Source: Candidatus Polarisedimenticolia bacterium
GTDB lineage: Bacteria > Acidobacteriota > Polarisedimenticolia > Gp22-AA2
Direction of reading: 5' to 3'
NCBI GenBank assembly: GCA_036001465.1
Contig: DASYUH010000099.1
Span: 1-64,000 of the forward strand
DNA length: 64,000 bases
This document shows positions 4,434-42,213 of the stretch, piece after piece (the stretch's first letter is position 1; every line of letters starts with the position of its first letter). The translations under genes and the position numbers were made by a program. Below the pieces are notes generated by a model that worked only from the letters and a program-made list of their open reading frames with translations, ran no database searches and was not told where the DNA came from.

Positions 4434-4976
4434 TCAGGCCGAGGGCCCGGGCGGGCTCGAGGTTCGATGACGGCGTGGGGCGTGTTCCCTCGCGATTCCC
4501 CGAGCCCATGCTCGTCCGAATCGGCCGAGCCAGTCGTCGAGCTCGGGCGGCTCCGAATTCACGCCGATCCACTTTCGGGCGGTCACCGTCGTGCCCCGGC
4601 CCAGCACGGAGCTGATCTCGAACTCGTCCATGATCCGTCGGACGCCCGGCAGGCCCAGCCCGAGGCCGCCGGAGGTGGAGAATCCCTCCCGCATGGCCAG
4701 CGCGACGTCGGGGATCCCGGGCCCGGCGTCGGCGGCCAGGACCTCGACGCCCCGCTTGCCGCTGTCGTCGACCAGCCTGAGCACGATCTCGCCGCGCGTC
4801 GCGTAGCGGACGATATTCCGCGCCAGCTCCGAGATCGCCGTCGCGACGACGGCGACGTCGGTGGAGCGGAAGCCACACTGGGAAGCCACGTCGCGCCCGT
4901 TCTGACGGACCGCGACGATATCCGTGTCGGAGCCGATGGGCACCCGCACCTCACCGGCGATGAGCGCGTCCTTCAT
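4434..4976 (-). CDS. RsbT-like anti-sigma factor/serine kinase (GHKL ATPase)
   Basis: A 180-residue protein built on a histidine-kinase-type ATPase fold. The N-box (ISELARNIVRYA), the G1 box (DAGPGIPD) and the glycine-rich lid (GGLGLGLPGVRRIMDEF) are all present, as in RsbT and related switch kinases that phosphorylate STAS-domain partners. The preferred start is the ATG after GGGAGG; another Met 12 residues upstream has no ribosome site. After the ATPase core, from about residue 135, the protein carries an Arg/Pro-rich tail not typical of RsbT. It is 63 bases downstream of a sigma-54 activator on the same strand, so the two may be co-transcribed. No STAS partner (RsbS/RsbR) is encoded in the window. 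Confidence 0.82.
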   Translation of the reverse strand: MKDALIAGEVRVPIGSDTDIVAVRQNGRDVASQCGFRSTDVAVVATAISELARNIVRYATRGEIVLRLVDDSGKRGVEVLAADAGPGIPDVALAMREGFSTSGGLGLGLPGVRRIMDEFEISSVLGRGTTVTARKWIGVNSEPPELDDWLGRFGRAWARGIAREHAPRRHRTSSPPGPSA

Positions 4977-5039
4977 GTCCCGGTAACCTCCCGTCTCGCA
5001 CGGCAGCCGCATGAGCTTAGCTCGAACCGACGGATTTTC

Positions 5040-7139
5040 CTAACGAAATTCCTCCGGCTTGATCCCGTACGCGATCAGCTTTCGGTAGAGCGTCTTCGGG
5101 TCGATGGCGAGCAGCGCCGCAGCCTTGCCCCGGTGACCGCCGACCTCGCGCAGCGTCGCGACGATGTGCTGGCGCTCCATCGCCTGGAGGCTCGCCGCTG
5201 ACGACACGGCCGGGGTCGACGGCGTGCCAAGGAGCTCCGGCGGCAGGTCCTCGGGCTGGATCTCCTCGGCCTTCGAGAGGATCGCGGCCCGCTCGATCGC
5301 GTGGAGCAGCTCGCGGACGTTCCCGGGCCACGCGTACTCCTCGAGCACGGCGAGGGTGCGAGGACCGAGCTGCCTGGCACCGTAGGTCGCGTGGGCCGCG
5401 ACGAAGTGACCGGCCAGGAGCGCGATATCCTCGCGGCGCTCCCGGAGGGGCGGCAGCCTGATCGTGATCGTGTTGATCCGGTAGTACAGATCCTGGCGGA
5501 ACTCACCCGCCTTCATCGCCTCGGCGAGGTCGCGGTTGGTCGCCGCCACGAGCCGGACGTCCACCCGCCGCGGTCGGATCGCGCCCACGCGGAAGAAGGT
5601 GCCGGCCTCGAGGGCGCGCAGAAGCTTCACCTGGCTGTCCGGTTCCAGCTCGCCGATCTCGTCGAGCAGGAGCGTGCCGCCGTCGGCCAGCTCGACGAGT
5701 CCGGGCTTGGCACCGACCGCGCCGGTGAACGCCCCCTTCTCGTGGCCGAAGAGCTCCGACTCGAGGAGCGTCTCCGGCAGCGCCGCGCAATTGAGCCCCA
5801 CGAAGGGACCGCCGGATCGCGGCGAGCCCCGGTGGATGAACCGGGCCACGACCTCCTTACCGGTCCCGGACTCGCCGGTGAGCAGGACGGTCGTCTCGGT
5901 CGGCGCCACCTTGGCCGCCTGGGTCAGGGCGCTCTTCCAGGGCTTGGAGTCGCCGATGACGCGGTGATAGCCGAGAGTCGTGTCCAGCTGCGCCTTCAGC
6001 GCCTGCACCCGCTCTTCGAGGTGGGTGGCGCGCTCCCGCGCCTCCGTCGCACGCTTCTCCTCTTCGGCGAGGCGCTGGTGGGAGAGCGCCAGGCTCACGT
6101 GGTCGGCCACCCGGCGCGCCACGACCACGTCCTCCTCCGAATACCGGCCCGGGGAGCGCGACAGGAAGAGCAGCCATCCGCGGCCGCCGTCGACCCGCAG
6201 AGGAATCTTGAGGAGGGATCGAATGCCGAGCTGCCGGCAGCCGGGACGGGGGCCGGCGCACTTCTCCGACTGCGCCTCGACGTCCGGGATGAGGACGTAT
6301 TCCGCTCCCTGGGGGCAGTCCGGCGCGTCCGACGCCGGCATCCGGGTCGGCAGGCCCGGGATCGGCTCGCCGGAGATCGCATCGACGGTGATCTCGCTCT
6401 GGTCGGCGCTGAGGGAAGTCAGCACGAGGCGGTCGTGTGGCAGGACCGGCTGCACGGTCTCCGAGACCCGGTTGAAGATGCCGCGCACGTCCAGCGTCCC
6501 GGCCAGCATCGGCAAAAGCGAATCGATCGCGTCCAGGCGGCGCCGGCGATCCGCCTCCAGGCTCCAGAGGCGCTCGTGCTCCAGGGCCAGGCCGAGCAGG
6601 TCGGCGATCGGCTGGATCGCCGTCTCGTGATCGGCGGTGAACGCCCCCGGGCGCTCCGAGGTGAACCAGACGCTGCCGATGAATTCCCCGCCCCGGGTCA
6701 GGGGCGCCCTGAGGATCGATCGGACCCCGCGCTCCAGGATGCTGCGGTCCATGGGGAAGGTGGGGTCGAGCAGCAGGGCCGCGTCGTCGATCCGGCCCGC
6801 GGACCCCGGACCCGACCGCATCAGCGGGGAAAAATCCTGGAGCCGCACGACCGGCGCGTGCCCCTCGTGGTTCATGGTCCCCGCCTTGGCATAGAGCCGC
6901 ATGGTCTCCGGCGTCTCGAGCCGCGACACTCCCATGTTGTCGAAGGGGAGGACCGTGGCGGCGGCCTCGGCCACGCGCTCGAAGACCTCCTTCAGCTCCA
7001 GCGTCTCCGAGACGATCCGCGCGATGCGGCTCAACGCCCCGGCCAGGGGACCGGGCTCCACCGGAGCGGCGCCGGCAGGCTGCAGGACCTGGGTGTGGCT
7101 CCGCAAGTCGTTATCGATGCCGGGAGGGCCGTTCCCCAC
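5040..7139 (-). CDS. Sigma-54-dependent activator with two GAF domains (FhlA/NorR type)
   Basis: A 699-residue enhancer-binding protein. Two GAF-type sensor domains occupy about residues 15-185 and 200-355, followed by a short coiled coil. The AAA+ domain has Walker A (GESGTGKE), the sigma-54 contact loop GAFTGA, Walker B ([11 protein letters not shown]) and the arginine-finger region. A Fis-type helix-turn-helix closes the protein ([20 protein letters not shown]). I prefer the GTG at 7139 because AAGGAG sits 8 bases before it; an ATG at 7181 would add 14 residues without a good ribosome site. There is no receiver domain, so the signal is probably a small ligand or redox cue sensed by GAF. 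Target promoters were not identified. Confidence 0.92.
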
Positions 7140-7254
7140 GATCGCAACTCCTTCCACTTCGTGGCGGGATGGACGGTGCATTTTACCACGCCGGCGGAAG
7201 AAGGGCCCGGGCGCGTTCCGGCCCCTGAGCCTGCCCGCGTCCTGGGCCGCACTC

Positions 7255-14283: not shown

Positions 14284-15327
14284 CTATCGCCCGCGGGTCC
14301 CCAGGGTGATCGTCTTGCCGATCGTGATCGACATCAGATCGTGCCCGACCGCCAGGCGTCCCCGGTATTCCCTGCGGGTCGCCGGCACGAGGTCGGCGGC
14401 GGTCGCCACCGAGGGGACGATGTGCGTGTAGACGGCCAGCCGCGGCCGGGCCAGGGCGAAGATCCGGCCGGCCTCCTCGGGAGTGGTGTGGCGGGCGATG
14501 ATCCCCTCGAGCGCCGCGGGATCGGCGATCAGGGCGCGGCGCCTCTCGAGCGCCGGGCTGACGACCTCGTGCACCAGGACGTCGGCCCGGTGCGCCTGCA
14601 CGATGAGACCCGGCGTCGGCCGGCAGTCGCCGGAGAAGACCGCCGAGCGCCCTTCGTACTCGAAGCGGTACCCGAAGGCGGGTGTGTGGGGCCCGTGGTC
14701 CACCGGGAACGCCAGGATCCTCAGCCCGTCGCGGGCGAAGATCACCCGTGCCCCGGCCCCCTCCTGCTCGATGGCGATGTCCGTGCCCGGCAGGCCGGAT
14801 CCTTCGGCCGGCAGCCTTTCCCCTTCGTCCCGCCGGTTGGCGACATCGAACTCGTAGGCGCGCACGAGATGCTTCGCCATGGACTCGGTTCCCGGCGGGC
14901 CGAAGACCGGCAGCGGCCGCTCCCGTCCGAAGAGCCAGCCGGTCAGCCACACGTCCGGCAGCCCGACCGTGTGGTCCGAGTGGAGGTGCGTCAGCAGGAC
15001 CAGGTCGATGCCGCTCAGCAGCTCGCGCCCTCCCGCCTGAAACAGCCGGATTGTCGCCCCCCGCCCCGCGTCCACCAGCACCCGGTGCCGCCCCGCCTCG
15101 ACCAGGCTGCTCGGCCCGAACCTCTCCGCCGTCGGCCGGGGGTTCCCCGTCCCCAGGAGGGTGATCCGGAAGGGGCCGTCGCTCGATTTCGCCATCGACG
15201 CGCTCTGACCCGGCGGCGCCGCGTGCCCCGGGGCAGCGACCCGTCCAAGCGCTGCGAGCATCGAGATGAAGGTCACGCCGGCGAGCGTCAGCCGTCGCAT
15301 TGCGAGCGATCTTCCAGGCTCACCCAT
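14284..15327 (-). CDS. Exported MBL-fold metallo-hydrolase (RNase Z/arylsulfatase-like)
   Basis: A 347-residue protein starting at the ATG after GAGGAGGG. The N-terminus has a basic stretch and a hydrophobic segment ending in Ala-rich sequence, read as a signal peptide to about residue 37. The beta-lactamase fold shows ITLLGTGNPRP, THLHSDHTVGL (the HxHxDH zinc site), a second-site His in VDHGPH, FSGDCRPTPGL with the bridging Asp, and THIVPS with the last His. The layout is that of RNase Z-like and cyclic-nucleotide or sulfate-ester hydrolases; with a signal peptide an RNA-processing role is unlikely. It follows RhlE on the same strand, with 270 bases between them. The substrate is unknown. 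Confidence 0.87.
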   Translation of the reverse strand: MGEPGRSLAMRRLTLAGVTFISMLAALGRVAAPGHAAPPGQSASMAKSSDGPFRITLLGTGNPRPTAERFGPSSLVEAGRHRVLVDAGRGATIRLFQAGGRELLSGIDLVLLTHLHSDHTVGLPDVWLTGWLFGRERPLPVFGPPGTESMAKHLVRAYEFDVANRRDEGERLPAEGSGLPGTDIAIEQEGAGARVIFARDGLRILAFPVDHGPHTPAFGYRFEYEGRSAVFSGDCRPTPGLIVQAHRADVLVHEVVSPALERRRALIADPAALEGIIARHTTPEEAGRIFALARPRLAVYTHIVPSVATAADLVPATRREYRGRLAVGHDLMSITIGKTITLGTRGR

Positions 15328-28114: not shown

Positions 28115-28768
28115 TCAGTCGTGCAGGACGACATTCAGCAGCGAGCTGTGAACCTCCAGCCCGGCGCCGTAGTCGATGAGGCCCAGCTTGCGGAATTTGT
28201 TCATGAAGAAGCTGACTCTCGAGCGCGTGGTGCCGACGATCTTCGCCAGCGTCTCCTGGCTGATCTTCGGAATGACCGGCTCCGTCTTGCTTTCCTTCCC
28301 GAAGTTGGCCAGCAGGAGCAGAACCCGGGCCAGCCGCTTCTCGCTTGAGTTGAACAGCTGATCCACCAGGTCTTCCTCGAGCCGGATGTTCCGGGAGAGC
28401 AGGTAAGCGAGGAACAGCTCGGAAAAGATCGGCTCGTCGTGGAGCACACGGATCGTGCCCGCTTTCTCCAGCCGCACGATCGAGCACTCGGAAATGGTGG
28501 TGGAGGTCGCCATGCGCAGGCGCTGGCCCCCAAGGCATCCTTCTCCAAAGAAGTCGCCGGCGCCAAGGATGGCGATGACCGCCTCCTTGCCGTGCTCGGA
28601 GACGACCGTGAGCTTGACCCTGCCCTTCTGGATATGGAAGACGGCGTCCGCCGCGTCCCCCTGCGAGAACACCACCTGGTTCCTGTGGTAGGCGCTGATC
28701 GTCTTTCCGTCGCCGACCTTGGCCAGAAACACCTTGGGATCGAATGGCAGCGCTGCGCTCGGTTTCAT
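28115..28768 (-). CDS. Crp/Fnr-family transcription regulator
   Basis: A 217-residue DNA-binding regulator. The cyclic-nucleotide-binding-type beta barrel spans about residues 15-125 (VVFSQGDAADAVFHIQKGRVKL and FFGEGCLGGQ), then a long dimerisation helix and a winged helix with ISQETLAKIVGTTRSRVSFFMNKF as the helix-turn-helix. It has no FNR-type N-terminal Cys cluster, so an iron-sulfur oxygen sensor is unlikely. The effector is unknown. The ATG follows GGAGGGCGC. A TCAGGA-N3-TCCTGA palindrome sits upstream near position -43 of its predicted promoter, consistent with self-regulation. The downstream OmpA-type gene is probably in the same transcript. Confidence 0.9.
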   Translation of the reverse strand: MKPSAALPFDPKVFLAKVGDGKTISAYHRNQVVFSQGDAADAVFHIQKGRVKLTVVSEHGKEAVIAILGAGDFFGEGCLGGQRLRMATSTTISECSIVRLEKAGTIRVLHDEPIFSELFLAYLLSRNIRLEEDLVDQLFNSSEKRLARVLLLLANFGKESKTEPVIPKISQETLAKIVGTTRSRVSFFMNKFRKLGLIDYGAGLEVHSSLLNVVLHD

Positions 28769-28791
28769 CTGCGCCCTCCAACCGGCTGACC

Positions 28792-28836
28792 ATTAGAACC
28801 GATCAGACTCGCCTGCGCAGTCAGGACCCTCCTGAT
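28792..28836 (-). promoter_or_regulatory. Crp/Fnr gene promoter with palindromic operator
   Basis: TCTAAT on the minus strand (plus 28792-28797) is a good -10 with start near 28785. No -35 consensus is visible at 17 bp. Instead the dyad TCAGGA-N3-TCCTGA (28821-28835) is centred near -43, close to the class II activator position (about -41.5) known for CRP and FNR. The same dyad recurs at 42155-42169. Confidence 0.5.
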
Positions 28837-28861
28837 CTTCGGCTCAGGGGCCTTCCGACCT

Positions 28862-28900
28862 GTCAGGGATTCTCACCACCTGATTCAGTTGCTGCCGGAT
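28862..28900 (+). repeat. 39-bp element, copy A (upstream of LCAT-like gene)
   Basis: GTCAGGGATTC, nine variable bases, GATTCAG, six variable bases, CCGGAT. It ends 34 bases before the GTG of the lipase gene. GATTC occurs twice, 14 bases apart. It is matched without gaps by copies at 30352 and 36785 (27 of 39 positions invariant). It is a candidate promoter or regulator-binding site. Confidence 0.65.
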
Positions 28901-28934
28901 AGAGCGCCTCCGCTTCTTATGGGAGGGTATCACG

Positions 28935-30329
28935 GTGATTTCGAACCTCCGCCACGCCCGGCGTTTCACCTGGACCGCGACTCTGCTTCTCGCGCTCCTC
29001 TCCACCGGTGCGCTGACGGGGTGCGCCGTGTTCAGGAAGCTCAACCTGGCCGAGATCCACCAGCCGTCGGCCGCCCGTCCGCAGCGCAACCCGGTCATCC
29101 TGATCCACGGGTTCCTCGGATCGAAGCTGCGAAACGCCCGTACGGACGAGGTGGTCTGGGGCGGCTACCTGAATTCCATCAGACGGGGCAGGACCGATGG
29201 CCTCGATCTGCCGATCGACAGCCCGGATCTCTCCCGGAACCGCGACGACCTTGTCCCCTTTGCCATCGTGGAAAGCGTCGTGGGCGTCAAGTTCTACGGC
29301 GCCATCCTGAATGCCCTGCGGGACGTCGGAGGATACCGGCAGGGGGACATCGACAACCCGGGTCCGCACGATACGCTGTTCGTCTACAACTATGACTGGC
29401 GCCGGGACATCGTCGAGTCGGCCGCCGGTCTCGGGCGGGCCATCGAACGCATCAAGGACCGGCTGCACGCCCCCGACATCCGCTTCGACATCGTGGCGCA
29501 CAGCATGGGGGGCCTGGTGGCGCAGTACTACCTCGGATTCGGCACGACGGACGTGCTCGGCCGGGGCGGGCCCTACACGGCGATGGATGCAGGGGCGCCG
29601 AACATCGGCCGCATGATCCTGATCGGTACTCCGCTGCGGGGCACGATGGTGGCCTTCCGGACCCTGAACTTCGGCTTCTCGAGAACCATGTCGCCCGCGG
29701 TCGTCTTCACGCTGCCTTCGCTCTACCAGCTCCTGCCGAGCGACCGCCGGGTGCATATCGTCGACCCGGACGGCGACCCCGTGGACCTCGACCTCTACGA
29801 CGCCAACAACTGGGTGCGCAATGGCTGGTCGGTCTTCAGGTCGCCGCCAGAAGGATCCTCCGAGGCACCGCGAAGGCGCTTCCTGCAGGCGGCCCTCGAT
29901 CGGGCCCGCGCCCTCCATGAGGCGCTCGCGTCGGCCGCCGAGGGCCCAGCGGCGGTCCCGGTCCACCTGTTCGGATCGGACTGTATCCCGACCCTCGACC
30001 GGGCGATCTTGAAGCGGACGGAGACCGGCTCCCTGATCCTGTTCGACGACGAGAGGACCCCCGATCCCGAGGCCCCGCAGCTCGCTAAGTCGATGCTGGT
30101 CCCCGGGGACGGAACGGTCACGGTGGGGTCGCTCCTGGGAATCGACGCCGGAGACTACGGCGCCGCCGACTGGAGCGCCGGCAGCAGGCCATTCGCCTCG
30201 ACCTTCTTCTTCTGCGAAACCCACGGATTCCTCCCGGGAGATCACGCATTCCAGCACAATCTCTTCTACGTGCTGTTTCACAGCCCGGAGCGGCCGGCTT
30301 CTCTGGCGCGCGACAGCCGCGGCCGATAA
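28935..30329 (+). CDS. LCAT-family lipase/acyltransferase lipoprotein
   Basis: A 464-residue lipoprotein. The GTG start follows GGGAGGG by 7 bases. A signal peptide ends in LTGC (Cys near 32). It carries an alpha/beta-hydrolase fold of the lecithin:cholesterol acyltransferase type: PVILIHGFLGSKL, the nucleophile elbow VAHSMGGLVAQYYLG, an Asp in VPGDGTVTVGS and a His in CETHGF. It probably hydrolyses or transfers phospholipid acyl chains at the outer membrane, aiding lipid balance. The 39-bp element lies just upstream, and the Crp/Fnr gene is divergent on the other side. Several long inserts make it larger than the minimal fold. Confidence 0.85.
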   Translation: MISNLRHARRFTWTATLLLALLSTGALTGCAVFRKLNLAEIHQPSAARPQRNPVILIHGFLGSKLRNARTDEVVWGGYLNSIRRGRTDGLDLPIDSPDLSRNRDDLVPFAIVESVVGVKFYGAILNALRDVGGYRQGDIDNPGPHDTLFVYNYDWRRDIVESAAGLGRAIERIKDRLHAPDIRFDIVAHSMGGLVAQYYLGFGTTDVLGRGGPYTAMDAGAPNIGRMILIGTPLRGTMVAFRTLNFGFSRTMSPAVVFTLPSLYQLLPSDRRVHIVDPDGDPVDLDLYDANNWVRNGWSVFRSPPEGSSEAPRRRFLQAALDRARALHEALASAAEGPAAVPVHLFGSDCIPTLDRAILKRTETGSLILFDDERTPDPEAPQLAKSMLVPGDGTVTVGSLLGIDAGDYGAADWSAGSRPFASTFFFCETHGFLPGDHAFQHNLFYVLFHSPERPASLARDSRGR

Positions 30330-30351
30330 GCGTACCGTCACCCGCAATTGC

Positions 30352-30390
30352 CGTCAGGGATTCCGACCCACCGATTCAGCCGTGGCCGGA
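30352..30390 (+). repeat. 39-bp element, copy B (upstream of OmpA-type paralogue 2)
   Basis: Same layout as the copies at 28862 and 36785: GTCAGGGATTC, nine bases, GATTCAG, six bases, CCGGAT. It is 23 bases after the lipase stop codon and 162 bases before the next start. The following leader shares short GGGCATCG and CTGGGTCG-like stretches with that of copy C. Confidence 0.65.
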
Positions 30391-30551
30391 TGGCAGGCCT
30401 TCTTGTCCTGTGCGAGTCTGTCAAGCGAAACGTGGAGGCGTGCCCCGTGCGGGCATCGCCTGGGGTCGACCCTCTCCCAGAGCCGGGGGTCCCATGAACA
30501 GTCGCAGGAACCCCGTTCTGGCCGGGGCTCTGGAGAAACCGAGGGAACACC

Positions 30552-31247
30552 ATGTCCTTGATCAGAAACCGTAACGTGATGCTCGCCATAGGTCTGTGCC
30601 TCGCCGGGGCCGCGGCTGTCGCGACCCTCGCCACCGCCGACCCTTCCGCCTCCAACAGTCAGATCTACAGCTCCTCACAGGACATCTCGGAGGCGCAGGC
30701 GATCCTGCAGCATGCGGGATACCTTAAGGCGGGAGCGTTCCGTAACGGCCAAGCTGACGATTCGACCGTCGAGGCGCTCCAAGCCTTCCAGTCAGCCCAT
30801 GCCCTTCTGCCGACGGGCTCGATCGACTTCGAAACGAGGACCCAGCTCCTGAGCCACAGGAAGGGCGATGGGGACGGAGGGCTGCGCTCGTCGTTGTTCG
30901 AGGGCAGAAAGAGCCTGGTTCTGGAAGGGGTCAGGTTCGACAATGATACGGCGCGCCTGAAACCCAGCTCTCGCGTGGTCCTGGACCGTGTGGCCAAGTC
31001 GCTGAACGCCTGGCCGGACGCCCGGGTCGAGATCGACGGACACACCGACTCCAACAACACCGACGCGTACAACCTGAAGCTCTCGAGGGCGCGATCCGCG
31101 GCGGTGTGTGAGTACCTGGTGGACAAGGGCGTGGCCTCGTCGCGGCTGGAGGAAAAAGGCTACGGCGAGTCCCGTCCCATCGCCAACAACGTGACCGCCG
31201 ACGGACGCGCGACGAACCGTCGCGTCGAGCTGACGCGAATCGACTGA
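30552..31247 (+). CDS. Exported peptidoglycan-binding/OmpA-family protein (paralogue 2)
   Basis: A 231-residue protein with the ATG after GAGGGAACACC and a signal peptide of about 29 residues. Domain order is the same as in the protein at 27280-28038: a PG-binding-like module (SEAQAILQHAGYLKAGAFRNG) and an OmpA C-terminal domain (RFDNDTARLKPSSRVVLDRVA, VEIDGHTDSNNTDAYN, KGYGESRPIANN, ATNRRVEL). It should bind peptidoglycan and perhaps an outer-membrane partner. The two copies flank the Crp/Fnr and lipase genes, probably from duplication. PBP1A follows 11 bases later, so this protein and PBP1A likely share a transcript. Confidence 0.88.
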   Translation: MSLIRNRNVMLAIGLCLAGAAAVATLATADPSASNSQIYSSSQDISEAQAILQHAGYLKAGAFRNGQADDSTVEALQAFQSAHALLPTGSIDFETRTQLLSHRKGDGDGGLRSSLFEGRKSLVLEGVRFDNDTARLKPSSRVVLDRVAKSLNAWPDARVEIDGHTDSNNTDAYNLKLSRARSAAVCEYLVDKGVASSRLEEKGYGESRPIANNVTADGRATNRRVELTRID

Positions 31248-31258
31248 GGGGCCTACAG

Positions 31259-33679
31259 GTGGCCGCCGCGCGCGACGGGCCGGGCAACTCGACCGTTCCG
31301 TGGCGCGGCGGCTGCCGCCCTCTCATGGGAAACACTGGATCCCCGATGCCGGTTCTCAATCATGCGCCGATGCCCCTCGCGAAGCGGCTCGTCGATCGTC
31401 CGGCGCACACCGGCCTGCTCCCTCACTATGGGATCGGCGCGACCGTTTCACGCCTGCGGGCCACCGGCGCCTTCGTGGCCGGTCGTCTTCGCTCTGCCTG
31501 GTCGCACCGCGCGGTCCGCCTCGCGGCCCCGCCTCTGGCGCTGCTCGCGATTCTCGCGGCGGGACCCCTGTACCACGTCTATTTCGACCGGAGCGGCCTC
31601 CCCGACCTCGATTCCTTCCTCCGATTCGAGCCCCCCGGGATCGGCGAGATTTACGACGACCGTGGCAAGGTCCTGATCCAGCTGGCGCGGGAATACCGCC
31701 GGGTGGTCTCCTACGATGAAGTGCCTCTCATCCTGCGGCAGGCCATCCTGGCCGCCGAGGACAGGAACTTCTTCTCCCATTCCGGCGTGGAATACCGCTC
31801 CCTGCCGCGGGTGGTTCAGAAATCAGCCCAGCACTCGCTGGCCGCTTGGTGGAGCGGCGACGGGCTCCGGCCGCGCTTCCCCCAGGGTGGCTCGACGCTC
31901 ACTCAACAGCTCGTCCGCAGCTATTTCCTTCATGATCTGACGATCCGCGAGAACGGCGACACCCTGATCGGCGCCGGGCTGACCCCGCGGGTCCTCTCCG
32001 CCGGCCTGGGCGTCCGGCCCATGAACAAGCTTCTCCGGAAGATGGAGGAGGTCCGCCTGACTCTCTGGCTCGAGGAGGAGATGCGACGGCGCTACGGATC
32101 GCAGCAGCAGGCCAAGCGTGAGATCTTCGCCCGCTATGCCAGCTTCATCTACCTGGGCAATGGCCGCTACGGCTTCGCCGCCGCCTCGGAGTACTACTTC
32201 GGCAAGCCTCTGTCGAGCTACACGCCGGAGGACGCTGGAACCGCGGCGCTGCTGGCGGGGATCAGCAAGTCGCCCAAGGAGTACGCCCCGAGGCCCGGCG
32301 ATCCGCGGCCCTTGCGCCGCCGCAACGCGATCCTGGCCCTCATGGCGCGCAATGGATACATCTCCGAGAGCCTGGCGAAGCGCTGCCAGGCGGAGCCGGT
32401 GCGAATCGCGACCCCCAGCCTGGTCAAGACCGACGCCCCAGGCGCGATCGGGAACGTCCTCGAGGAGCTGAAGCAGCTCGGCGGGACCCGATTCGGGATC
32501 GAGGACCTGTTCCAGGGGCGGATCTCAATCCGCTCCACGGTGGACGACCGGGTGCAGTCCGTCGTGAACGAAGCGCTGGAGAACGGCCTGGCCTTCTATG
32601 AGAAGCGGCACCGCAGGTCGAAAGGGCTCATCCAGGGATCGGTGGTCGTGCTGCGCAACACGGACGCGGCAATCCTGGCCGAAGCGGGCGGGCGACAGGT
32701 CTTCAAGGACCGCTCCACGCTTTACTCCGACCTGAACCGCGTCACGGGCTCGCTACGGCAGCCGGGCTCCGCATGGAAGCCGATGGTCTACCTGGCCGCA
32801 TTCCGCCAGGGACTCGACCTCGACACGGACGTGCCCGACGAGCCCATCGAGGTGCCCCTGGGCTCCGAACCCGGGGTCAAGTGGATCGCCAATTACGACA
32901 ACCAGTTCAAGGGCTCGATCCCCGTCCGACAAGCCCTGGCCGAGTCCCGCAACGCCGTGGCCGTGTGGATCGCCCGTGAGGTCGGCGTGGACGAGGTGAA
33001 CCGGACCGCCCGGGACCTGGGAATCCACACTCCGCTGAACCCTTACATCAGCACCGCGCTGGGGGCCTCTGAGGTGCGGCTGTTGGAGCTGGCGGGCGCC
33101 TATCGAGCCATGGCTTCGGGGAGCCTCGCGGAGCCCCACGTCATTGCTCGCGTGACCGACGCCGCCGGAGGGATCGTGCTCTACGAGGCGGCCCGGACTG
33201 CACCGGACATCGGCCCGGACGGGCCAAGCCCCGACGAGCTGAGCCTGATCCAGGAGGGGCTGCGCGGCGTGGTCCGCCTGCCGGAAGGCACGGCCCACGC
33301 GCTCGACGGCATCGACTTCCCGATCCAGGTGATGGGCAAGACCGGGACGACGACCAATTTCCGCGACGCGCTGTTCGTCGGCTCCACCTACGGGCGGCAG
33401 GGCATCACCGTGGCGGTCCGCATCGGCTTCGACGACAACCGCACGCTGGGCGACAAGGAGACCGGGTCGCGCGCCGCATTGCCGATCTTCCGCGAGATCA
33501 TGCTCCGCCTGTACCACGACCAGCTGGTGGGTCCTCCTCCGCGGTTCCCCTGCGACCTCGAGGTGCGGATCGACGAGTACCTGGCGATGCAGGCCGAGCG
33601 GACGGCGGGGATGGACGAGTGGCCGCAGGACCCCGTACACGGGCTGACCTCCTTTTCGGCCTTGCGGAGGGCCCCCTGA
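31259..33679 (+). CDS. Class A penicillin-binding protein (PBP1A type)
   Basis: An 806-residue bifunctional enzyme that polymerises and cross-links peptidoglycan in the periplasm. A single membrane helix is at about residues 86-106. The GT51 transglycosylase domain has AAEDRNFFSHSGVEY and FPQGGSTLTQQLVRSYF. The transpeptidase has SAWK (SxxK Ser), SRN (SxN) and KTGTT (KTG). An extra loop of about 30 residues follows FLHDLT (DTLIGAGLTPRVLSAGLG), where most GT51 enzymes continue directly into the SRKIKEA-like helix. The start is unsettled: GTG at 31259, or ATG at 31325 or 31346. It follows the OmpA-type gene by 11 bases. Confidence 0.92.
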   Translation: MAAARDGPGNSTVPWRGGCRPLMGNTGSPMPVLNHAPMPLAKRLVDRPAHTGLLPHYGIGATVSRLRATGAFVAGRLRSAWSHRAVRLAAPPLALLAILAAGPLYHVYFDRSGLPDLDSFLRFEPPGIGEIYDDRGKVLIQLAREYRRVVSYDEVPLILRQAILAAEDRNFFSHSGVEYRSLPRVVQKSAQHSLAAWWSGDGLRPRFPQGGSTLTQQLVRSYFLHDLTIRENGDTLIGAGLTPRVLSAGLGVRPMNKLLRKMEEVRLTLWLEEEMRRRYGSQQQAKREIFARYASFIYLGNGRYGFAAASEYYFGKPLSSYTPEDAGTAALLAGISKSPKEYAPRPGDPRPLRRRNAILALMARNGYISESLAKRCQAEPVRIATPSLVKTDAPGAIGNVLEELKQLGGTRFGIEDLFQGRISIRSTVDDRVQSVVNEALENGLAFYEKRHRRSKGLIQGSVVVLRNTDAAILAEAGGRQVFKDRSTLYSDLNRVTGSLRQPGSAWKPMVYLAAFRQGLDLDTDVPDEPIEVPLGSEPGVKWIANYDNQFKGSIPVRQALAESRNAVAVWIAREVGVDEVNRTARDLGIHTPLNPYISTALGASEVRLLELAGAYRAMASGSLAEPHVIARVTDAAGGIVLYEAARTAPDIGPDGPSPDELSLIQEGLRGVVRLPEGTAHALDGIDFPIQVMGKTGTTTNFRDALFVGSTYGRQGITVAVRIGFDDNRTLGDKETGSRAALPIFREIMLRLYHDQLVGPPPRFPCDLEVRIDEYLAMQAERTAGMDEWPQDPVHGLTSFSALRRAP

Positions 33680-33745
33680 GAAAAGCTTGACTTGAGGTGA
33701 ACTGTTGCAATCCGATCGACACACTGAACTGAAGAAGAGGCTCCC

Positions 33746-34816
33746 ATGCACAAGACACTCTCGCTGAAGCATGCACTGCTCGCCGCGGTCATCCTGTCCC
33801 TGCCGATTGCCGCCCAGGCGGGCTCGCGGCCCGATGCCTGGATCACGATGAAGGCGAAGACCGCCCTGTACCTCGCGAAGGACGTCACAGGCACGGCCAT
33901 CAACGTGGACACGATCAACGGACGCGTGACGCTTCACGGCACGGTGCGCGACGGGAAGGAGAAGGCGCGCGCGGTCGAGGTCGTGAACGCGATCGAGGGC
34001 GTGAGCGATGTGAAGGATCTTCTGCACGTCGCGTCGCATACCCAGAACGCGACGATGATGAAGCGCTCCGACGACCTCATCAAGTCGGACGTCCAGAAAC
34101 GCCTGAAAGCCGCCCGCTCGCTCGACGACAGCAGCATTTCGGTCAAGTCGGTCGACGACGGCGTCGTCCTCCTGACCGGCAGGGCGGCGTCCTACGACGA
34201 CCACCAGCGTGCCCTGTACTACGCAGCCGGCCAGCCCGGCGTGCTCCGCGTTGCCTCCGAGATCGACGTCCCCGACACGCTCCCTGACGTGGACTTCCGG
34301 GCGGAGGAAGAGATGATGCCCGAGACCGGGAAGCGCAACATCGGCGGCGTCACGAGCGACCTCTGGATCACGTCCGCCACCAAGATGAGACTCGCCGCGG
34401 ATTCCCGCACGCCAGCGACCGAAATCAACGTCGACAGCCATGACGGGATCGTGACGCTGTTCGGCATGGTCCCCTCTCAGGAGTCGAAGTCCGCGGCTGC
34501 CGAGATCGCCCGCGGCGTATCCGGGGTGAAGCGCGTGGAGAACCGGCTCGAAGTGGTGGCTTCCACGAACCATGATCTGGTCCAGGCGCGCGATGAGGAA
34601 ATCCAGCAGGGTGTGGAGAAATCCCTGAACGACCGTGGCGCGCAGGAGAACGCCGACATCGACGTCGAGGTGACGAACGGCGTCGTGCGACTGACCGGCA
34701 CGGTCTCCACCTGGCAGAGCAACCTCTCGGCCGTCTACCTTGCACGCTCCGTGACCGGGGTCCGATCGGTCCTCAGCGAGCTGAAGGTGGAGACCCGGAA
34801 CGCCTCCAGGTCATAG
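33746..34816 (+). CDS. Exported protein with four BON domains
   Basis: A 356-residue periplasmic protein with a signal peptide (about 1-25). Four BON modules are visible at about 30-95, 108-175, 205-275 and 282-350, each with a motif such as INVDTINGRVTLHGTVRD, ISVKSVDDGVVLLTGRA, INVDSHDGIVTLFGMV and VEVTNGVVRLTGTV. BON proteins such as OsmY bind phospholipid or pores and are often induced by osmotic or envelope stress. The ATG follows AAGAGG. It sits between PBP1A and the permease, with 66 bases before it and 10 after. No regulatory motif could be assigned in the gap. Confidence 0.88.
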   Translation: MHKTLSLKHALLAAVILSLPIAAQAGSRPDAWITMKAKTALYLAKDVTGTAINVDTINGRVTLHGTVRDGKEKARAVEVVNAIEGVSDVKDLLHVASHTQNATMMKRSDDLIKSDVQKRLKAARSLDDSSISVKSVDDGVVLLTGRAASYDDHQRALYYAAGQPGVLRVASEIDVPDTLPDVDFRAEEEMMPETGKRNIGGVTSDLWITSATKMRLAADSRTPATEINVDSHDGIVTLFGMVPSQESKSAAAEIARGVSGVKRVENRLEVVASTNHDLVQARDEEIQQGVEKSLNDRGAQENADIDVEVTNGVVRLTGTVSTWQSNLSAVYLARSVTGVRSVLSELKVETRNASRS

Positions 34817-34826
34817 AACCCACACA

Positions 34827-35975
34827 GTGAACCACGACGGCGCTGCTGCTCATTCCGGAATCGACAAACCCGAGACCGTCTCACGGAAACCCGTCGACAT
34901 CCGATCCCTTTCTGAGGCTGTGATCGCCGGCATCGGCGTGGTGCTGTTCCTGCGATTCGCTCAGGAGGTGTTCGTCCCCCTCGCCGTCGGCGTGCTGATC
35001 AGCTATGCGCTCGAGCCGATCGTCGCCTGGCTCAAGAAATGCTCCATCCCTCGGGCCCTCGGAGCCGCCGTCCTGCTTGCCGCTCTGGTCGGCGGCGCCG
35101 GTTTCGCGGCATTCCGGCTGCTCGATGATGCCGTGGCCGTCGTCGAGAAGCTGCCGGCAGCAGCGAAGAAGCTCGGCGAGTCCGTGAAACTGACCCGGGG
35201 CGATGGACAGGGCCTGATGCAGAAGATGCAGGACGTCGCGACCGAGATGGAGAACACGACCACGGAGGCGGTCGGCCCCGACGCGATCCGGAAGGGCGTC
35301 ACGCGCGTGCAGGTGGAGGACAAGCCGATTAATGTGGGTGACTATCTCTGGCAGGGCGGCTCGGGGATCATTTCTGTGGGCAGCGAGATCGTCCTGGTCC
35401 TGTTCCTCGTTTATTTCATCCTGATCACCGGCGATCTCTTCACGCGGAAGATGATGAAGATCGCGGGTCCATCCGTCCTGAGCCGGAAGGTCACGGCACA
35501 GATCCTCGACGAGATCGACACGCAGATCGCGCGGTACATGCTCATCCAGGTGATGACGTCGCTTATCGTCGGCGTCGTTTCGGGCATCGCGTTCTGGATG
35601 ATGGGCCTCGAGCAGGCCCCCATCTGGGGGATCGCCGTGGGGCTGCTCGACACGATCCCTTACTTCGGTCCCGCGATCGCCATGGCAGGCCTCTTCACGA
35701 TCGGCTTCCTCCAGTTCGGCACGATCCTGATGGGCCTCTATCTCGCGGGACTGGCATTTCTCATCATGAGCCTCGAAGGGCTCCTCCTGACACCCTGGCT
35801 CACCATGCGGGCGGTGCGCATGAATGGCGTCGCTCTGTTCCTGGGGCTGATGTTCTGGGGGTGGATGTGGGGAGTGTGGGGCCTGCTGCTCGCCGTGCCG
35901 ATGATGGTCATGATCAAGTCGATCAGCGATCGCATCGAGGACCTGAAGCCTGTCGGCGAGCTGCTCGGCACTTGA
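34827..35975 (+). CDS. AI-2E/PerM family membrane permease
   Basis: A 382-residue inner-membrane protein of the AI-2E transporter (PerM, UPF0118) family, with about seven to eight helices. The N-terminal pair FAQEVFVPLAVGVLISYALEP and the C-terminal IPYFGPAIAMAG, TIGFLQFGTILMGLYL and FWGWMWGVWGLLLAVPM segments are typical. A soluble middle part (about 100-170) interrupts the membrane helices. Members export autoinducer-2 or small solutes, or take part in sodium/proton exchange, so the name should not be read as AI-2 transport. The start is GTG, 10 bases after the BON gene, so the two are co-transcribed. Confidence 0.88.
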   Translation: MNHDGAAAHSGIDKPETVSRKPVDIRSLSEAVIAGIGVVLFLRFAQEVFVPLAVGVLISYALEPIVAWLKKCSIPRALGAAVLLAALVGGAGFAAFRLLDDAVAVVEKLPAAAKKLGESVKLTRGDGQGLMQKMQDVATEMENTTTEAVGPDAIRKGVTRVQVEDKPINVGDYLWQGGSGIISVGSEIVLVLFLVYFILITGDLFTRKMMKIAGPSVLSRKVTAQILDEIDTQIARYMLIQVMTSLIVGVVSGIAFWMMGLEQAPIWGIAVGLLDTIPYFGPAIAMAGLFTIGFLQFGTILMGLYLAGLAFLIMSLEGLLLTPWLTMRAVRMNGVALFLGLMFWGWMWGVWGLLLAVPMMVMIKSISDRIEDLKPVGELLGT

Positions 35976-36019
35976 ACAGGGCTCAATTTGCAACACCGTA
36001 AGGAAACAAGGAGAACACG

Positions 36020-36769
36020 ATGAACAAGCGGCTTCCGGCTCTGGTCCTCTTCGCCTGCATGCTGGTCATGCTCGGGACCGCCCCGTCGACGGCGTTTGAG
36101 AAGATCGATCCGGGAATCTACCGGGTCGATTGGAAGACGATCGACGACCTCCTGACCATCCGCAGCCAGGCCGACCTGAACATCCTCGTCCTCGAGGACA
36201 ACAACACGAAAAACATCTCCGATGCGCACATGAAACTGCTGCGGCAGTGGGTGGAATCCGGAGGCTTTCTCTGGGTGGCAGGAGACGGCCTCAAGAGCTC
36301 TCTGGCGCAGACCGTCGCACCGTTCCGATCCGAGGCCTTCGACTTCGTCAGGTCCTCCAGCGGCAATCGCGGCGGCGAGCTCATCGTCAAGGGACTCTCG
36401 CCCCGCATGACGATCGCGGACCACGCACTCACCGCAGGAGTGAGCCAGCTTTACCTCTTCGCCCGAAGCAGGTTTGACGGCACCGAGCGGGCCGACCCGC
36501 TCGTTCAGATGGGCGACAGCGCCGGGAACAGCGGCTGGGTCCTGGTGGCGGTCCCGGTCGGGCGGGGCTTCATGATTCTGGACGGGACGGCGCGCAAGGG
36601 ACATTGGCTCTTCCGGAGGTTGAAGGGGTTCAACGAGGATCATCCCAACAGCCTCAAGCAGGAATCGGTCTGGAACAGTTACGACTGGGAGAGATTGCGG
36701 CTCAACGCGCTGGACCACGCCCGCCAGGCGCTGGCCACGGGCGAAGGGGGCATGCCGACCGGCTTCTGA
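36020..36769 (+). CDS. Exported protein of unknown function, GATase/ThuA-like fold hint
   Basis: A 249-residue secreted protein with a signal peptide (about 1-25) and the ATG after AAGGAG. No family is certain. The run KLLRQWVESGGFLWVAGDG and the flanking strands look like the Rossmann-like fold of DUF4159/DUF4350 or ThuA-like exported proteins, but no catalytic Cys or triad is evident. Later, GGELIVKGLSPRM and GWVLVAVPVGRGFMILDGTA are further beta strands. It lies in the envelope island between the permease and the glycine-zipper lipoprotein, separated from the latter by the third 39-bp element. Confidence 0.6.
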   Translation: MNKRLPALVLFACMLVMLGTAPSTAFEKIDPGIYRVDWKTIDDLLTIRSQADLNILVLEDNNTKNISDAHMKLLRQWVESGGFLWVAGDGLKSSLAQTVAPFRSEAFDFVRSSSGNRGGELIVKGLSPRMTIADHALTAGVSQLYLFARSRFDGTERADPLVQMGDSAGNSGWVLVAVPVGRGFMILDGTARKGHWLFRRLKGFNEDHPNSLKQESVWNSYDWERLRLNALDHARQALATGEGGMPTGF

Positions 36770-36784
36770 GGACTGCGGCCGCTC

Positions 36785-36823
36785 GTCAGGGATTCTCACC
36801 CGCAGATTCAGGCGGGCTCCGAT
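36785..36823 (+). repeat. 39-bp element, copy C (upstream of glycine-zipper lipoprotein)
   Basis: Same ungapped layout as the other two copies: GTCAGGGATTC, nine bases, GATTCAG, six bases, TCCGAT. It lies 16 bases after the preceding stop and 160 bases before the lipoprotein ATG. The spacing to the next start is close to that of copy B. Confidence 0.65.
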
Positions 36824-36982: not shown

Positions 36983-37651
36983 ATGAAGGTGATTCATCTG
37001 ATGGCAGGTGTCGTTGCGGTGGTCCTGTTGGCCGGGTGTGCGGGAGTGGACCACGCGCAGGATGCGTCCAACCAGCCCGGCACGACCGGGAATCGTCCTT
37101 CGTCGGGAACGACGCAGACGCACATGGTCGGCATCCCGGCCGGCACCGAGCTGACGTTGGCGCTCGACTCGACGCTGAGCTCCGAGACCAGCCAGGCCGG
37201 AGATACTTTCACTGCGACGGTGGTGGAGCCGATCGTGGTGGAGAACCGCGAAGTGATCCCCGCAGGCAGCACGATCGAAGGGAAGATCACGGATGCGACC
37301 CCGGCCAAGAGAGGAGCCGGCCAGGCGACTCTTGGATTGTCATTCAGCACCCTCAGGCTCGCAAGCGGGTACCGCACCGACATCGTGGGCAGCTTCCAGG
37401 AAATCAGCGCGTCCAAGAAGGGCCGCAACGCGGCGGTCATCGGAGGGTCCGCGGCCGGCGGGGCGTTGCTCGGGCGCATCCTGGGCAAGGACACGCGCAG
37501 CACGGTGATCGGCGCCATCATCGGCGGCGGCATCGGAACGGCCGTGCTGGTCGGCAAGGAGCGGGAGCAGGCGTCCCTTCCGTCCGACACACCGTTCGGG
37601 ATCCGGCTCGAACAGGCGATTCAGGTCCCTCACACGGGTTCCCGCGCGTAG
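36983..37651 (+). CDS. Glycine-zipper lipoprotein
   Basis: A 222-residue lipoprotein. The ATG is 6 bases after AGGAGG. The lipobox is LLAGC (Cys near 19). The central part (about 48-135) is a beta-rich module with PAGTELTLALDSTLSSE and IPAGSTIEGKITDATPAKR, resembling TrbI/TraB-like or DUF-type outer-membrane lipoproteins. Then a glycine-zipper-like segment (IGGSAAGGALLGRILGKDT and GAIIGGGIGTAVLVG) may insert into or associate with the membrane. The role is unknown; similar proteins are common in envelope-stress regulons. The third 39-bp element lies 160 bases upstream, and the next unknown gene starts 28 bases after its stop. Confidence 0.75.
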   Translation: MKVIHLMAGVVAVVLLAGCAGVDHAQDASNQPGTTGNRPSSGTTQTHMVGIPAGTELTLALDSTLSSETSQAGDTFTATVVEPIVVENREVIPAGSTIEGKITDATPAKRGAGQATLGLSFSTLRLASGYRTDIVGSFQEISASKKGRNAAVIGGSAAGGALLGRILGKDTRSTVIGAIIGGGIGTAVLVGKEREQASLPSDTPFGIRLEQAIQVPHTGSRA

Positions 37652-38307: not shown

Positions 38308-41300
38308 TCATCGACTCTTTGGGGGGAGGGGCACCCGCACGTCGATCTGGGTGCCATGTCCCGCCCGGGACTTCACCTGAAAGGTGCCATGAACCAGCCT
38401 CACCCTCTCGTTCATGCTGAGGAGGCCTAACCCCTCTCCCGTCCGGCTCGGGCGGGCATCGAACCCTTTGCCGCGATCATGGATCGAGAGGTGCAGGATA
38501 CCGCCGGCCGTCTTGAGATTGACACCGACGGATTTGGCGCCGGAATGCCTGGCCACATTGCGAAGGCTTTCCTGTGTCACACGGTACAGGCACAGGGCGA
38601 CCTCCTCCTGCAGCGAGGGGGGCTCCTTCTGGGCGCTGAACTTGACATCGATCCCTTCCCTCCCCGAAAACTCGACGCAGAACGATTGCAGGGCCGCCCT
38701 CAGCCCGAGGTGGGTGAGGATCGCAGGATGAAGGTCGTAGGCCAGGCGCCTGACCTCCTCGACAATCTCCCCGAGGTGCTCCTGGTGTGCCTCGAATCCT
38801 GCCCTTGCGGGTGCGCCTGCCGGAGCCAGCTTGGCGAGACCCGCCGATCCGAGCTGAAGAGCCGACAGCCTCTGGCTCAAATCATCGTGCAGCTCCCTGG
38901 CCACGCGCTTCCGCTCGTCTTCCTGGGCCCTGATCAGGCGCCCTGCGAGGATTCTCAGCTCGGCGCGGCTCGAACGGAGATCCTGCTTGCTCTCCCGGAG
39001 CGACGACTCGGCCCGCAGGCGACCCTTCTGCACGGAGTCGTGAGCCGCGACCAGGCGCCGCTCGGTGAGCCTGAACCTTGTGATGTCCTTCATGGTGAGC
39101 AGGACGATCTTTCCATGGTCCTCGTGGAGATCGAACTGCCGGGCGTCGACCGCCATGATCGTGGGCGTCGAGCCGCGGATCTCGAACTCGATTTCGAAGT
39201 CCCTGGTCCGCGCCTGGCCCGCGACGGTGTCCTCCAGCATGCTCTTGAAAGCCGGGGAGCGAAACCCGCTCGGCTCCAGCTCGTAGACGAGCCGATTCTC
39301 TATCGCCGCGCGCGACATATGGAAGGTCTTGAGGAACGAGTCGTTCGCGATCAGCACGCGCCGGTCTCCGCCCAGAACCATCAAGGGCTCCTGCACGGCT
39401 TCCACGATCGTCCTGCTGAAATTCCTGGAGCGCTCCACCTCCTGGAGGCTTCGCTTTATCCTGTCGATTTCGAACAGCACCAGGACGAGCCCATCGATCC
39501 GGTCGTCCTCGGTCCGGTAAGGACGCAGCCGCATCGAATACCAGACATCCGACCGATCCTGAACCTCGATCTCTTTGGCCGCCAGGCTCTTGAGCACTTC
39601 GGCGGCCACACCATCCAGATTGGGGAGCCTGAGGGTGTGCCGGATCTCGGAGATGTGCCGCCCGATATCCGCGGCCGTCAGGCCCAGCACCTTGTCGGCC
39701 GCGACGGTGGATCGCCGCAACAGCAGATCGCCGGTCAGCATCAGGATCGGCACGTTGACGCTCGTGACCAGGTTGGTCAAATCGTTGCTGAGATCCGTCA
39801 GGTCTCGATTTCGAATCGCGAGCTGGTCGTTGACCGTCGTCAGCTCTTCGTTGGTCGACTCCAGCTCTTCATGCGAGGTCTGGAGCTCTTCGTTGGCGCT
39901 CTGGAGCTCCTCCATGCTCGACATGAGCTCTTCGTTCGCCGACTTGAGCTCCTCCTCGGCGGTCTGCCGGCTGTCCATCAGCAAGCGCAGGTGCTCCTGA
40001 CTGTCGGCCAGCTCGTTCCTCAGCCGGATCACGTCGCGTCCGTTCCCCCGTTCTCCCGACCTGACCCTCATGCCCGCCGCCCCGCTCGAGTCCTGAGCGT
40101 CGGCGGCCGGAGGGACGACTGTCCCGAAGAGGACCAGGAGGCGATCGTTCTGCTCCGAACGGGCGGTCATGGGAATGATCTCGAGTGTGGGCCCCATGGG
40201 CTCTTCGTGGCCACGCCTGACCGGCCGCCCCTGCTTCCGGACAGGAGCGCCTGTCCTCCTGGCCAGATCGATCGCCGCGGACAGCTGGGGGGCGAGGTCT
40301 CGCCTGACCAGCCGGAGGAGGTTGAGGTTGGCCGTTCCAGAGGCGAGCCGCACGTACGGGTGGGTGTCTCCCAGGATCTCGAGGATATCCATCTTGTCGT
40401 TGATGACGACGCCCGCGGGAGCGTACCTCTCCATGATGAGTCGATTCGCCTCCTCCCGGACGCTCATCTCGCTCCGGGCCTGATGCTGTTCCCTGCCGGC
40501 CGCCCGGGCCGCAGGGCTCGGGGCAGGTCCCGCCAGCCGGGCGGCGAATCCAGTCCCTTGCATGGCGGGAAACGGCTTCTTGCTGTAGATCCTGTGCTTC
40601 ATGTCCATCGGGGCGAACAGGTCGGAAGTACTCTCGAGCGTTTCGGCCTTCCCTAGAAGCAGGCAGCCGTCCGACCTGAGGGCGTAATGGAAAATCGGCA
40701 GGATCGCGTCCTGCTGGGTCTTCCCCATGTAGATCAGGACATTGCGGCAGCTCACAAGGTCGACCTTGGAGAAGGGCGGATCCTTGGTGATGTCCTGCCT
40801 GGCGAACACGCAGGCCTCCCGGACTCGCTGGCCGATCTTGTACTCTTCACCCATCTTGACGAAGAAGCGCCGCAGGCGTGAAGGCGACACCGAGCTCGCG
40901 ATGCCCGCCGGGTAGATCCCCTTGCGGGCCACGGCGATGGCCCTCTCGCTCAGGTCGGTCGCGAAGATCTGGATCGGGTTGCGGACGCGCAGTCGGCCCG
41001 TGATCTCGAAGAGGAGCATGGCGATCGAGTACACCTCCTCGCCGGTGGAGCAGCCGGGCACCCACACGCGGAACGGCTCCTTGGGCGGTTTTCTCTTCAC
41101 CATCGCGGGGAGGATCGTGGTCCTCAATCTCTCGAAGGTCTTCGTGTCCCGGAAGAATTCGGTGACTTTGATCAGCAGGTCCTCGTACAGGGCATCCACT
41201 TCAGAGGAATCCTGGCGCAGGAGTCTGGCGTAGTCGACGACATTCCGGATCTTGCTGAGGGCCATGCGGCGGAGGAGGCGGCGCTGGACGGTGGCCTCCT

Positions 41301-42198
41301 TGTAGGTGGAGAAATCGGCTCCGGTTCTTTCGCGCAGGAGGGCGAAGATTTCCGCCAGCCCTCCTTCCGATGTTTTCGGGGTCGGCAGACGCTCGGCAGC
41401 GCGGGCGATCGACTCGGGACTCCGGGCGATCCGCGCCAGCATGGCGGCGATCTCGTGCGGCGGAAGGACAAAGTCCGCGACCTTGGCTTTGATCGCGTTG
41501 CGGGGCATGCCGTCGTACTTGGCCGTGCCGGGATCCTGGGCGAGGGTGATGCCCCCTTCCCTTTTGATCGCCGCAAGCCCAACCGTCCCGTCCGAAGCGG
41601 TCCCGGAGAGGATCACTCCGATCGCCCTGTGCTTCCGATCCCGTGCCAGCGACTCCATAAAATGATCGATGGGGAGATTTTCGGCCGGCGCCTGCAGACG
41701 GCGAGAGAGCGACAGGACGCATTTGTCGACGGTCATCCTGGCATTACGCGGGATCACGTAGACATGATCCGGCTCGAGGAGCATCCGGTGCTTCGCCTCC
41801 AGGACTGGCATGGAAGTCACCCGGGCAAGTAGGGAGGTCAGGATGCTCTCGTGCTTTGGATCCAGGTGCGAGACAAACACGAAGGACATCCCGGTATCGG
41901 CCGGGAGGTTCTCCAGTACCGCCGAAAAAGCCTCCAGACCGCCTGCGGAGGCTCCGACCCCGACGACGGCGCAGTTCACATGATGGTCCGCCGGCTTGCG
42001 GGGCGTCCGTGACCTGACCGCGAGGTCGGAAGAGGCCCTTCCTGCGGCTCCGCGGGTCCGTCTCCGGTTCGGCGTTCTAGCCTTTCTAACCAATGATCCG
42101 CCCGCTCCCGAGGGTGAGTCCGCTAGCCTACCACCAAGTGGTGAAAATCCGTTGTCAGGACGCTCCTGACGTCGTGTCGGAAACCCCGTGCCGCGCAT
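38308..42198 (-). CDS. CheB-CheR-PAS-HisKA_3 sensor kinase
   Basis: A 1296-residue fusion. Domains in order: CheB methylesterase (about 75-260; GASAGG Ser, SHLDPKHES His, GTASDGTVGL Asp); CheR methyltransferase (about 285-560; FFRDTKTFE, PGCSTGEEVYS); a Glu/Gln-rich coiled coil (about 715-800; LKSANEELMSSMEELQ); two PAS domains (about 800-1050); HisKA_3 (about 1090-1160; RVARELHDDLSQRL) and an HATPase domain (to 1290). It likely couples receptor-like methylation chemistry to a NarL-type kinase. No matching response regulator or receptor is in the window. The start is uncertain: the ATG at 42198 lacks a ribosome site; TTG at 42093 is an alternative that would place the 42154-42170 palindrome upstream. 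Its regulator partner is unknown. Confidence 0.9.
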   Translation of the reverse strand: MRGTGFPTRRQERPDNGFSPLGGRLADSPSGAGGSLVRKARTPNRRRTRGAAGRASSDLAVRSRTPRKPADHHVNCAVVGVGASAGGLEAFSAVLENLPADTGMSFVFVSHLDPKHESILTSLLARVTSMPVLEAKHRMLLEPDHVYVIPRNARMTVDKCVLSLSRRLQAPAENLPIDHFMESLARDRKHRAIGVILSGTASDGTVGLAAIKREGGITLAQDPGTAKYDGMPRNAIKAKVADFVLPPHEIAAMLARIARSPESIARAAERLPTPKTSEGGLAEIFALLRERTGADFSTYKEATVQRRLLRRMALSKIRNVVDYARLLRQDSSEVDALYEDLLIKVTEFFRDTKTFERLRTTILPAMVKRKPPKEPFRVWVPGCSTGEEVYSIAMLLFEITGRLRVRNPIQIFATDLSERAIAVARKGIYPAGIASSVSPSRLRRFFVKMGEEYKIGQRVREACVFARQDITKDPPFSKVDLVSCRNVLIYMGKTQQDAILPIFHYALRSDGCLLLGKAETLESTSDLFAPMDMKHRIYSKKPFPAMQGTGFAARLAGPAPSPAARAAGREQHQARSEMSVREEANRLIMERYAPAGVVINDKMDILEILGDTHPYVRLASGTANLNLLRLVRRDLAPQLSAAIDLARRTGAPVRKQGRPVRRGHEEPMGPTLEIIPMTARSEQNDRLLVLFGTVVPPAADAQDSSGAAGMRVRSGERGNGRDVIRLRNELADSQEHLRLLMDSRQTAEEELKSANEELMSSMEELQSANEELQTSHEELESTNEELTTVNDQLAIRNRDLTDLSNDLTNLVTSVNVPILMLTGDLLLRRSTVAADKVLGLTAADIGRHISEIRHTLRLPNLDGVAAEVLKSLAAKEIEVQDRSDVWYSMRLRPYRTEDDRIDGLVLVLFEIDRIKRSLQEVERSRNFSRTIVEAVQEPLMVLGGDRRVLIANDSFLKTFHMSRAAIENRLVYELEPSGFRSPAFKSMLEDTVAGQARTRDFEIEFEIRGSTPTIMAVDARQFDLHEDHGKIVLLTMKDITRFRLTERRLVAAHDSVQKGRLRAESSLRESKQDLRSSRAELRILAGRLIRAQEDERKRVARELHDDLSQRLSALQLGSAGLAKLAPAGAPARAGFEAHQEHLGEIVEEVRRLAYDLHPAILTHLGLRAALQSFCVEFSGREGIDVKFSAQKEPPSLQEEVALCLYRVTQESLRNVARHSGAKSVGVNLKTAGGILHLSIHDRGKGFDARPSRTGEGLGLLSMNERVRLVHGTFQVKSRAGHGTQIDVRVPLPPKSR
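42154..42170. promoter_or_regulatory. Palindrome between the sensor kinase and the EPS operon
   Basis: GTCAGGA-N3-TCCTGAC, a perfect 7-bp dyad with three central bases. The TCAGGA/TCCTGA half-sites are identical to those at 28821-28835 upstream of the Crp/Fnr gene. It lies between two divergent genes if the kinase starts at 42093, and about 87 bases before the EPS operon start predicted at 42249. Confidence 0.5.
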
Positions 42199-42213
42199 TC
42201 AGGGGCTGCCGAA

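Follow-up and report, generated by a model that had tools for sequence, protein, structure and literature searches.

In an uncultured Acidobacteriota lineage, paired sites upstream of envelope and stress genes probably serve a two-component response regulator

In the Bvg system of Bordetella, both the kinase and the regulator are autoregulated. BvgA, a homologue of NarL, binds DNA as head-to-head dimers spaced 22 bp from centre to centre, and the most promoter-proximal dimer abuts the −35 region (PMC7250471). In soils and sediments the Acidobacteriota are an abundant, mostly uncultured phylum, and knowledge of how their stress responses are coordinated is scant; no acidobacterial stress regulon of this kind was found in the literature that we searched. 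Here we describe predicted tandem operators in a window of 64 kb, the whole stretch of DNA analysed, which belongs to a 98-kb contig (C99) representing 2.1% of a 4.58-Mb assembly (G000). Comparisons were made chiefly with G006, which belongs to another genus of the same family, and G011, from a different family of the same order.

A preliminary description of the window had reported three ungapped copies of a 39-bp element, each intergenic, on the plus strand and 5' of an envelope gene. We find these copies, here called A, B and C, at 28862, 30353 and 36785; only the second start had been misplaced, by one base (30352), and the identity given for them, 27 of 39 positions the same in all three without a gap, is correct, as is their placement. 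Copy A precedes the gene of an LCAT-like lipoprotein lipase (28935..30329, +) and copy B that of a protein with OmpA and PG_binding_1 domains (30552..31247, +). Copy C precedes the gene of a glycine-zipper lipoprotein (36983..37651, +), which was assigned from a match below the curated cut-off and a lipobox recognized by eye. The gene of a class A penicillin-binding protein (31259..33679, +) is possibly co-transcribed with the OmpA gene, whose leader contains a hairpin that is striking by eye but folds no better than shuffled sequences. With up to three mismatches, the pattern GTCAGGGATTC-N9-GATTCAG matched the 64 kb three times, at A, B and C, against an expectation of 0.05, and no shuffled sequence gave three matches. 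A scan of the whole 4.58-Mb genome with three mismatches allowed returned the same copies as its only exact matches, and adding two copies from G006 extended the ungapped similarity to ∼87 bp in a five-copy alignment. The 39-bp element is a genuine regulatory element.

Further copies were recovered with sequence-only models: R at 28820, immediately 5' of copy A; Y at G000:C99:82452(−), 18 kb outside the window; and A6, C6, R6, X6 and Y6 in G006. A weight matrix added X11 in G011, completing a set of 11 copies. Among 41 genomes of the class, full elements were detected only in G000, G006 and G011, all three draft assemblies. The best 150 candidates per genome were scored, a depth at which weak copies may escape, and these included no significant further copies elsewhere in G000, in G006 or in 38 other class genomes. 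One-mismatch matches to the pattern in other Acidobacteriota families occurred in about the number expected by chance. Copies A, B, C, Y, A6, C6, X6, Y6, R6 and X11 lie 5' of the next gene or operon and in its orientation.

Alignment of the 11 copies left GTCAGG, TCAG and CNGA as invariant columns at fixed spacing. The recurrence of GATTC every 14 bases, noted earlier as the repeated unit, holds for A, B and C, but the first GATTC is absent from Y, Y6, X6, X11, R and R6; having been lost in 6 of 11 copies, the 14-bp direct repeat was dropped as the unit. What is conserved is a pair of 15-bp inverted repeats, TCAG-N7-CNGA, with the ideal form TCAGG-N5-CCTGA. Since TCAG and CNGA are nearly complementary, the second half of the element (O2) is itself such an inverted repeat; TCAG-N7-CNGA is found in all 11 copies, and Y, Y6 and X11 carry a perfect second-half repeat (CTGA). 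O1, the first half, also begins with TCAG; R and R6 have it as the perfect palindrome TCAGGACCCTCCTGA. From centre to centre, O1 and O2 are 22 bp apart, or 23 bp in R and R6. Copies A, B and C have a decayed O1 right half, CACC or GACC where the ideal is CTGA; in X6, which lies 5' of a kinase-response regulator operon in G006, O1 is one base short and the operator imperfect.

In the window, the predicted operator R-O1 (TCAGGACCCTCCTGA; 28821..28835, no strand assigned) lies between the lipase gene and the divergent gene of a Crp/Fnr-type regulator (cNMP_binding and HTH_Crp_2 domains; 28115..28768, −), a presumed regulon member, and the same 15 bp are present in G006. Predicted operators follow on the plus strand at R-O2 (TCAGGGGCCTTCCGA; 28844..28858), centred 23 bp from R-O1; at A-O1 (TCAGGGATTCTCACC; 28863..28877), with its decayed right half, and A-O2 (TCAGTTGCTGCCGGA; 28885..28899), centred 22 bp from A-O1; at B-O1 (TCAGGGATTCCGACC; 30354..30368) and B-O2 (TCAGCCGTGGCCGGA; 30376..30390); and at C-O1 (TCAGGGATTCTCACC; 36786..36800) and C-O2 (TCAGGCGGGCTCCGA; 36808..36822). 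A further perfect palindrome, TCAGGACGCTCCTGA (42155..42169, no strand assigned), lies 5' of the gene of a CheB-CheR-PAS-HisKA_3-HATPase hybrid kinase (38308..42198, −), the true start of which is probably downstream of this palindrome. G006 has kept it too, together with a second site at a distance of 44 bp; in the window, the weaker predicted operator TCAGGGGCTGCCGAA (42199..42213, +) lies 44 bp (2 × 22) away, with a CCGA half-site between the two at 22 bp.

Two features of gene content were also observed. In G006, a CofD-family (YvcK-like) gene is located between the Crp/Fnr and lipase genes (L069 8296-8931); the window interval 28769-28862 is without this gene, yet it has kept the operator pair R that precedes the gene in G006. 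Elsewhere in the window (4434-7181, −), an RsbT-like HATPase gene adjoins a GAF-sigma54-activator gene, and these form a second regulatory module.

The perfect palindrome TCAGG-N5-CCTGA occurs 17 times in G000, compared with once for the reversed control, and 6 of the 17 fall on contig C99 (binomial, 1e-6). Considering all 75 palindromes from 12 genomes of the order, 14/33 were intergenic in G000, G006 and G011 versus 5/42 in nine relatives (Fisher, 0.003); these counts rest on a rough gene caller, which placed the plainly regulatory sites 42155 and 72262 in spurious or over-long frames, and the contrast is thus conservative. Intergenic palindromes lie near the genes of the response regulator RR1 (see below), the CheB/CheR kinase, the Crp/Fnr protein and a small DUF5670 membrane protein, and in G006 near a CBS-domain gene. 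The 15-mers 5' of RR1, the kinase and the Crp/Fnr gene are identical in G000 and G006, and their flanks diverge. Distances between paired sites cluster at 22-23 and 44-45 bp, and shuffled sequences gave a mean of 0.11 pairs at 22 bp; the regions were chosen for holding sites, and orthologous promoters, which are not independent, were counted twice.

The candidate binder, RR1, is a NarL/FixJ (LuxR-type) response regulator encoded 8 kb beyond the window (G000:C99:72449-73078). It shares 95% identity with a protein on contig C112 of G006. Response_reg and GerE domains are present in RR1 and in the G006 relative. The perfect palindrome ∼190 bp 5' of RR1 has an identical counterpart in G006; perfect palindromes also precede both regulator loci of G011. 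The genes that follow copy X6 encode an RsbT-like ATPase, a kinase with RsbU_N and HATPase domains and a response regulator of the NarL type; those that follow X11 are a kinase-regulator pair of this kind. The closest relatives of the X6-operon regulator are found in G011 (71%), on the Y6 contig of G006 (70%) and in RR1 itself (68%), and a tree placed the five regulators of G000, G006 and G011 in one clade (support 95/89). The three genomes with full elements are those that hold this clade and its top hits; relatives outside it (∼65% identity or less) had no full element nearby, and the only perfect palindrome near them was in G005. That site (G005:C56:1925-1939), flanked by a response regulator pair and a NusG-like exopolysaccharide gene, belongs to a 63% complete genome in which no full element was detected.

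From sequence and co-occurrence we infer membership in a NarL-type regulon, with RR1 as its putative binder, activation as the presumed effect and a sensed signal that is likewise presumptive. The elements are thus likely to be tandem operators from which RR1 activates an envelope and general-stress regulon, and the paired sites probably serve a two-component response regulator that turns these genes on. The 39-bp element would be a tandem operator of two 15-bp inverted repeats whose centres, 22 bp apart, are separated by two helical turns, positioned 5' of the core promoters that serve envelope and stress genes. Phosphorylated RR1 dimers may fill these phased sites side by side on one face of the DNA and recruit RNA polymerase. 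The genes activated by RR1 would be its own; the kinase genes, namely that of the CheB/CheR kinase in the window and the RsbU_N-HATPase kinase operon in G006 and G011; the Crp/Fnr, lipase, OmpA and glycine-zipper genes; and the GNAT-YtxH-KaiC-KaiB-KaiB-HisKA_3 kinase operon. The last of these has element Y in front and lies beyond the window (G000:C99:77148-82296; L024 13148-17670 onward); its KaiC has two ATPase domains, and two copies of KaiB are present. The earlier proposal of a regulatory binding site 5' of envelope genes is well supported, with the binding site itself a prediction. Its envelope link held for the downstream genes, but the reach is wider and takes in regulators, the KaiC/KaiB operon, and CBS and DUF5670 proteins.

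An alternative assignment, which we consider unlikely, is that the adjacent Crp/Fnr-type regulator (28115-28768) binds the elements and controls the neighbourhood and its own gene. This gene adjoins R and A, has a perfect palindrome within its promoter and has a 91% identical ortholog in G006, other relatives in the class reaching at most 31%; in addition, the 5' region of a 69% identical ortholog in Rokubacteria contains an exact 15-bp match, GTCAGGGATTCTCAC. G011, however, carries the element but no Crp/Fnr ortholog, which argues for the response regulator as the binder, and palindromes precede response regulator genes far from any Crp/Fnr gene. Moreover, 80 relatives of the Crp/Fnr gene share no upstream operator or palindrome, and their loci show no synteny with the envelope cluster. 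The palindrome is also odd-centred, unlike the even-centred TGTGA-N6-TCACA or TTGAT-N4-ATCAA, and fits to the CRP and FNR consensus sequences were poor.

Family members related to the Crp/Fnr protein at 62-91% identity occur in Acidobacteria, Nitrospirae, Rokubacteria and Bradyrhizobium, and the family has the helix TRSRVSFFMNKFRKLG. The Rokubacteria match lies at L076 9968(−), with a near copy at 14582(−), 4.6 kb away; both are possibly due to chance.

It is still less probable that an alternative sigma factor uses the elements as promoters, one of the two functions originally suggested for them. Their fixed architecture and co-orientation with the downstream genes would agree with this, as would the ungapped conservation, which in the 87-bp alignment extends to a possible −10 region (TATCAC/TGTCAA-like) ∼40 bp 3' of O2. 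Yet the ECF, sigma-54, sigma-28, sigma-B and sigma-70 consensus sequences fit the sites poorly, and the conserved blocks are inverted repeats at helical-turn spacing that also occur singly or between divergent genes, which is not a −35/−10 layout. Downstream of the elements, no sigma-70-like core promoter was recognized. The suggestion of a binding site stands as a predicted regulatory site; that of a sigma-factor promoter, which none of these consensus sequences fits, is improbable.

We regard as very improbable a mobile or segmentally duplicated repeat with no regulatory role, for which three close copies inside 8 kb and the alignment of copy B with A6 over 99 bp might speak. The copies lie 5' of genes and run in their direction, the conserved blocks are retained in G006 and G011 although the flanks diverge, the same palindrome recurs in unrelated intergenic contexts, and the repeat was not found elsewhere in G000; neither random scatter, intragenic location nor behaviour as a mobile repeat, which the preliminary description had named as grounds for rejecting its proposal, was observed. 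A role at the RNA level, as structures or protein-binding sites in 5' leaders, is scarcely credible: the elements do lie in 5' intergenic regions and CAGGGA resembles a CsrA site, but no RNA structure is conserved, Rfam gave no match above its curated threshold, and palindromes also sit between divergent genes.

Assignment of the elements to RR1 raises a broader possibility, which we put forward tentatively: the general stress response of this lineage may run through a NarL-type response regulator, fed by CheB/CheR- and RsbU_N-type kinases and without a stress sigma factor, that controls envelope, Crp/Fnr and KaiC/KaiB genes from phased TCAGG-N5-CCTGA operators. If the proposed regulon is real, KaiC/KaiB, Crp/Fnr and envelope genes would be joined in one circuit, and the BvgA-type promoter design of tandem dimers at 22 bp would extend to a distant phylum. 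A defined operator and a named candidate regulator make the regulon testable from sequence.

Compared with known Crp/Fnr operators, the sites described here are likewise short palindromes, and a Crp/Fnr gene is present in the cluster, but they are odd-centred and occur in a genome without a Crp/Fnr ortholog (G011). The predicted targets YtxH, OmpA, CBS and small DUF5670 membrane proteins resemble those of general stress responses with Rsb-type partner switching (sigma-B, and EcfG of Alphaproteobacteria); a further likeness is that genes for RsbT- and RsbU_N-like proteins lie near the regulator in G006. In contrast to these responses, the output here appears to be a DNA-binding response regulator, and no sigma-B/EcfG promoter consensus was found. 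With BvgA of Bordetella, the system shares the REC and GerE regulator family, head-to-head dimers at a 22-bp spacing of centres on one face of the DNA (predicted here from sequence), autoregulation of kinase and regulator (likewise predicted here) and, as at BvgA promoters, one good site with weaker neighbours. It differs in its odd-centred operator, TCAGG-N5-CCTGA, compared with the BvgA site TAAGAAATTTCCTA (PMC7250471), and in its predicted sites at envelope and general-stress genes of Acidobacteriota. It would be a new regulon of a familiar type in an uncultured lineage of this phylum.
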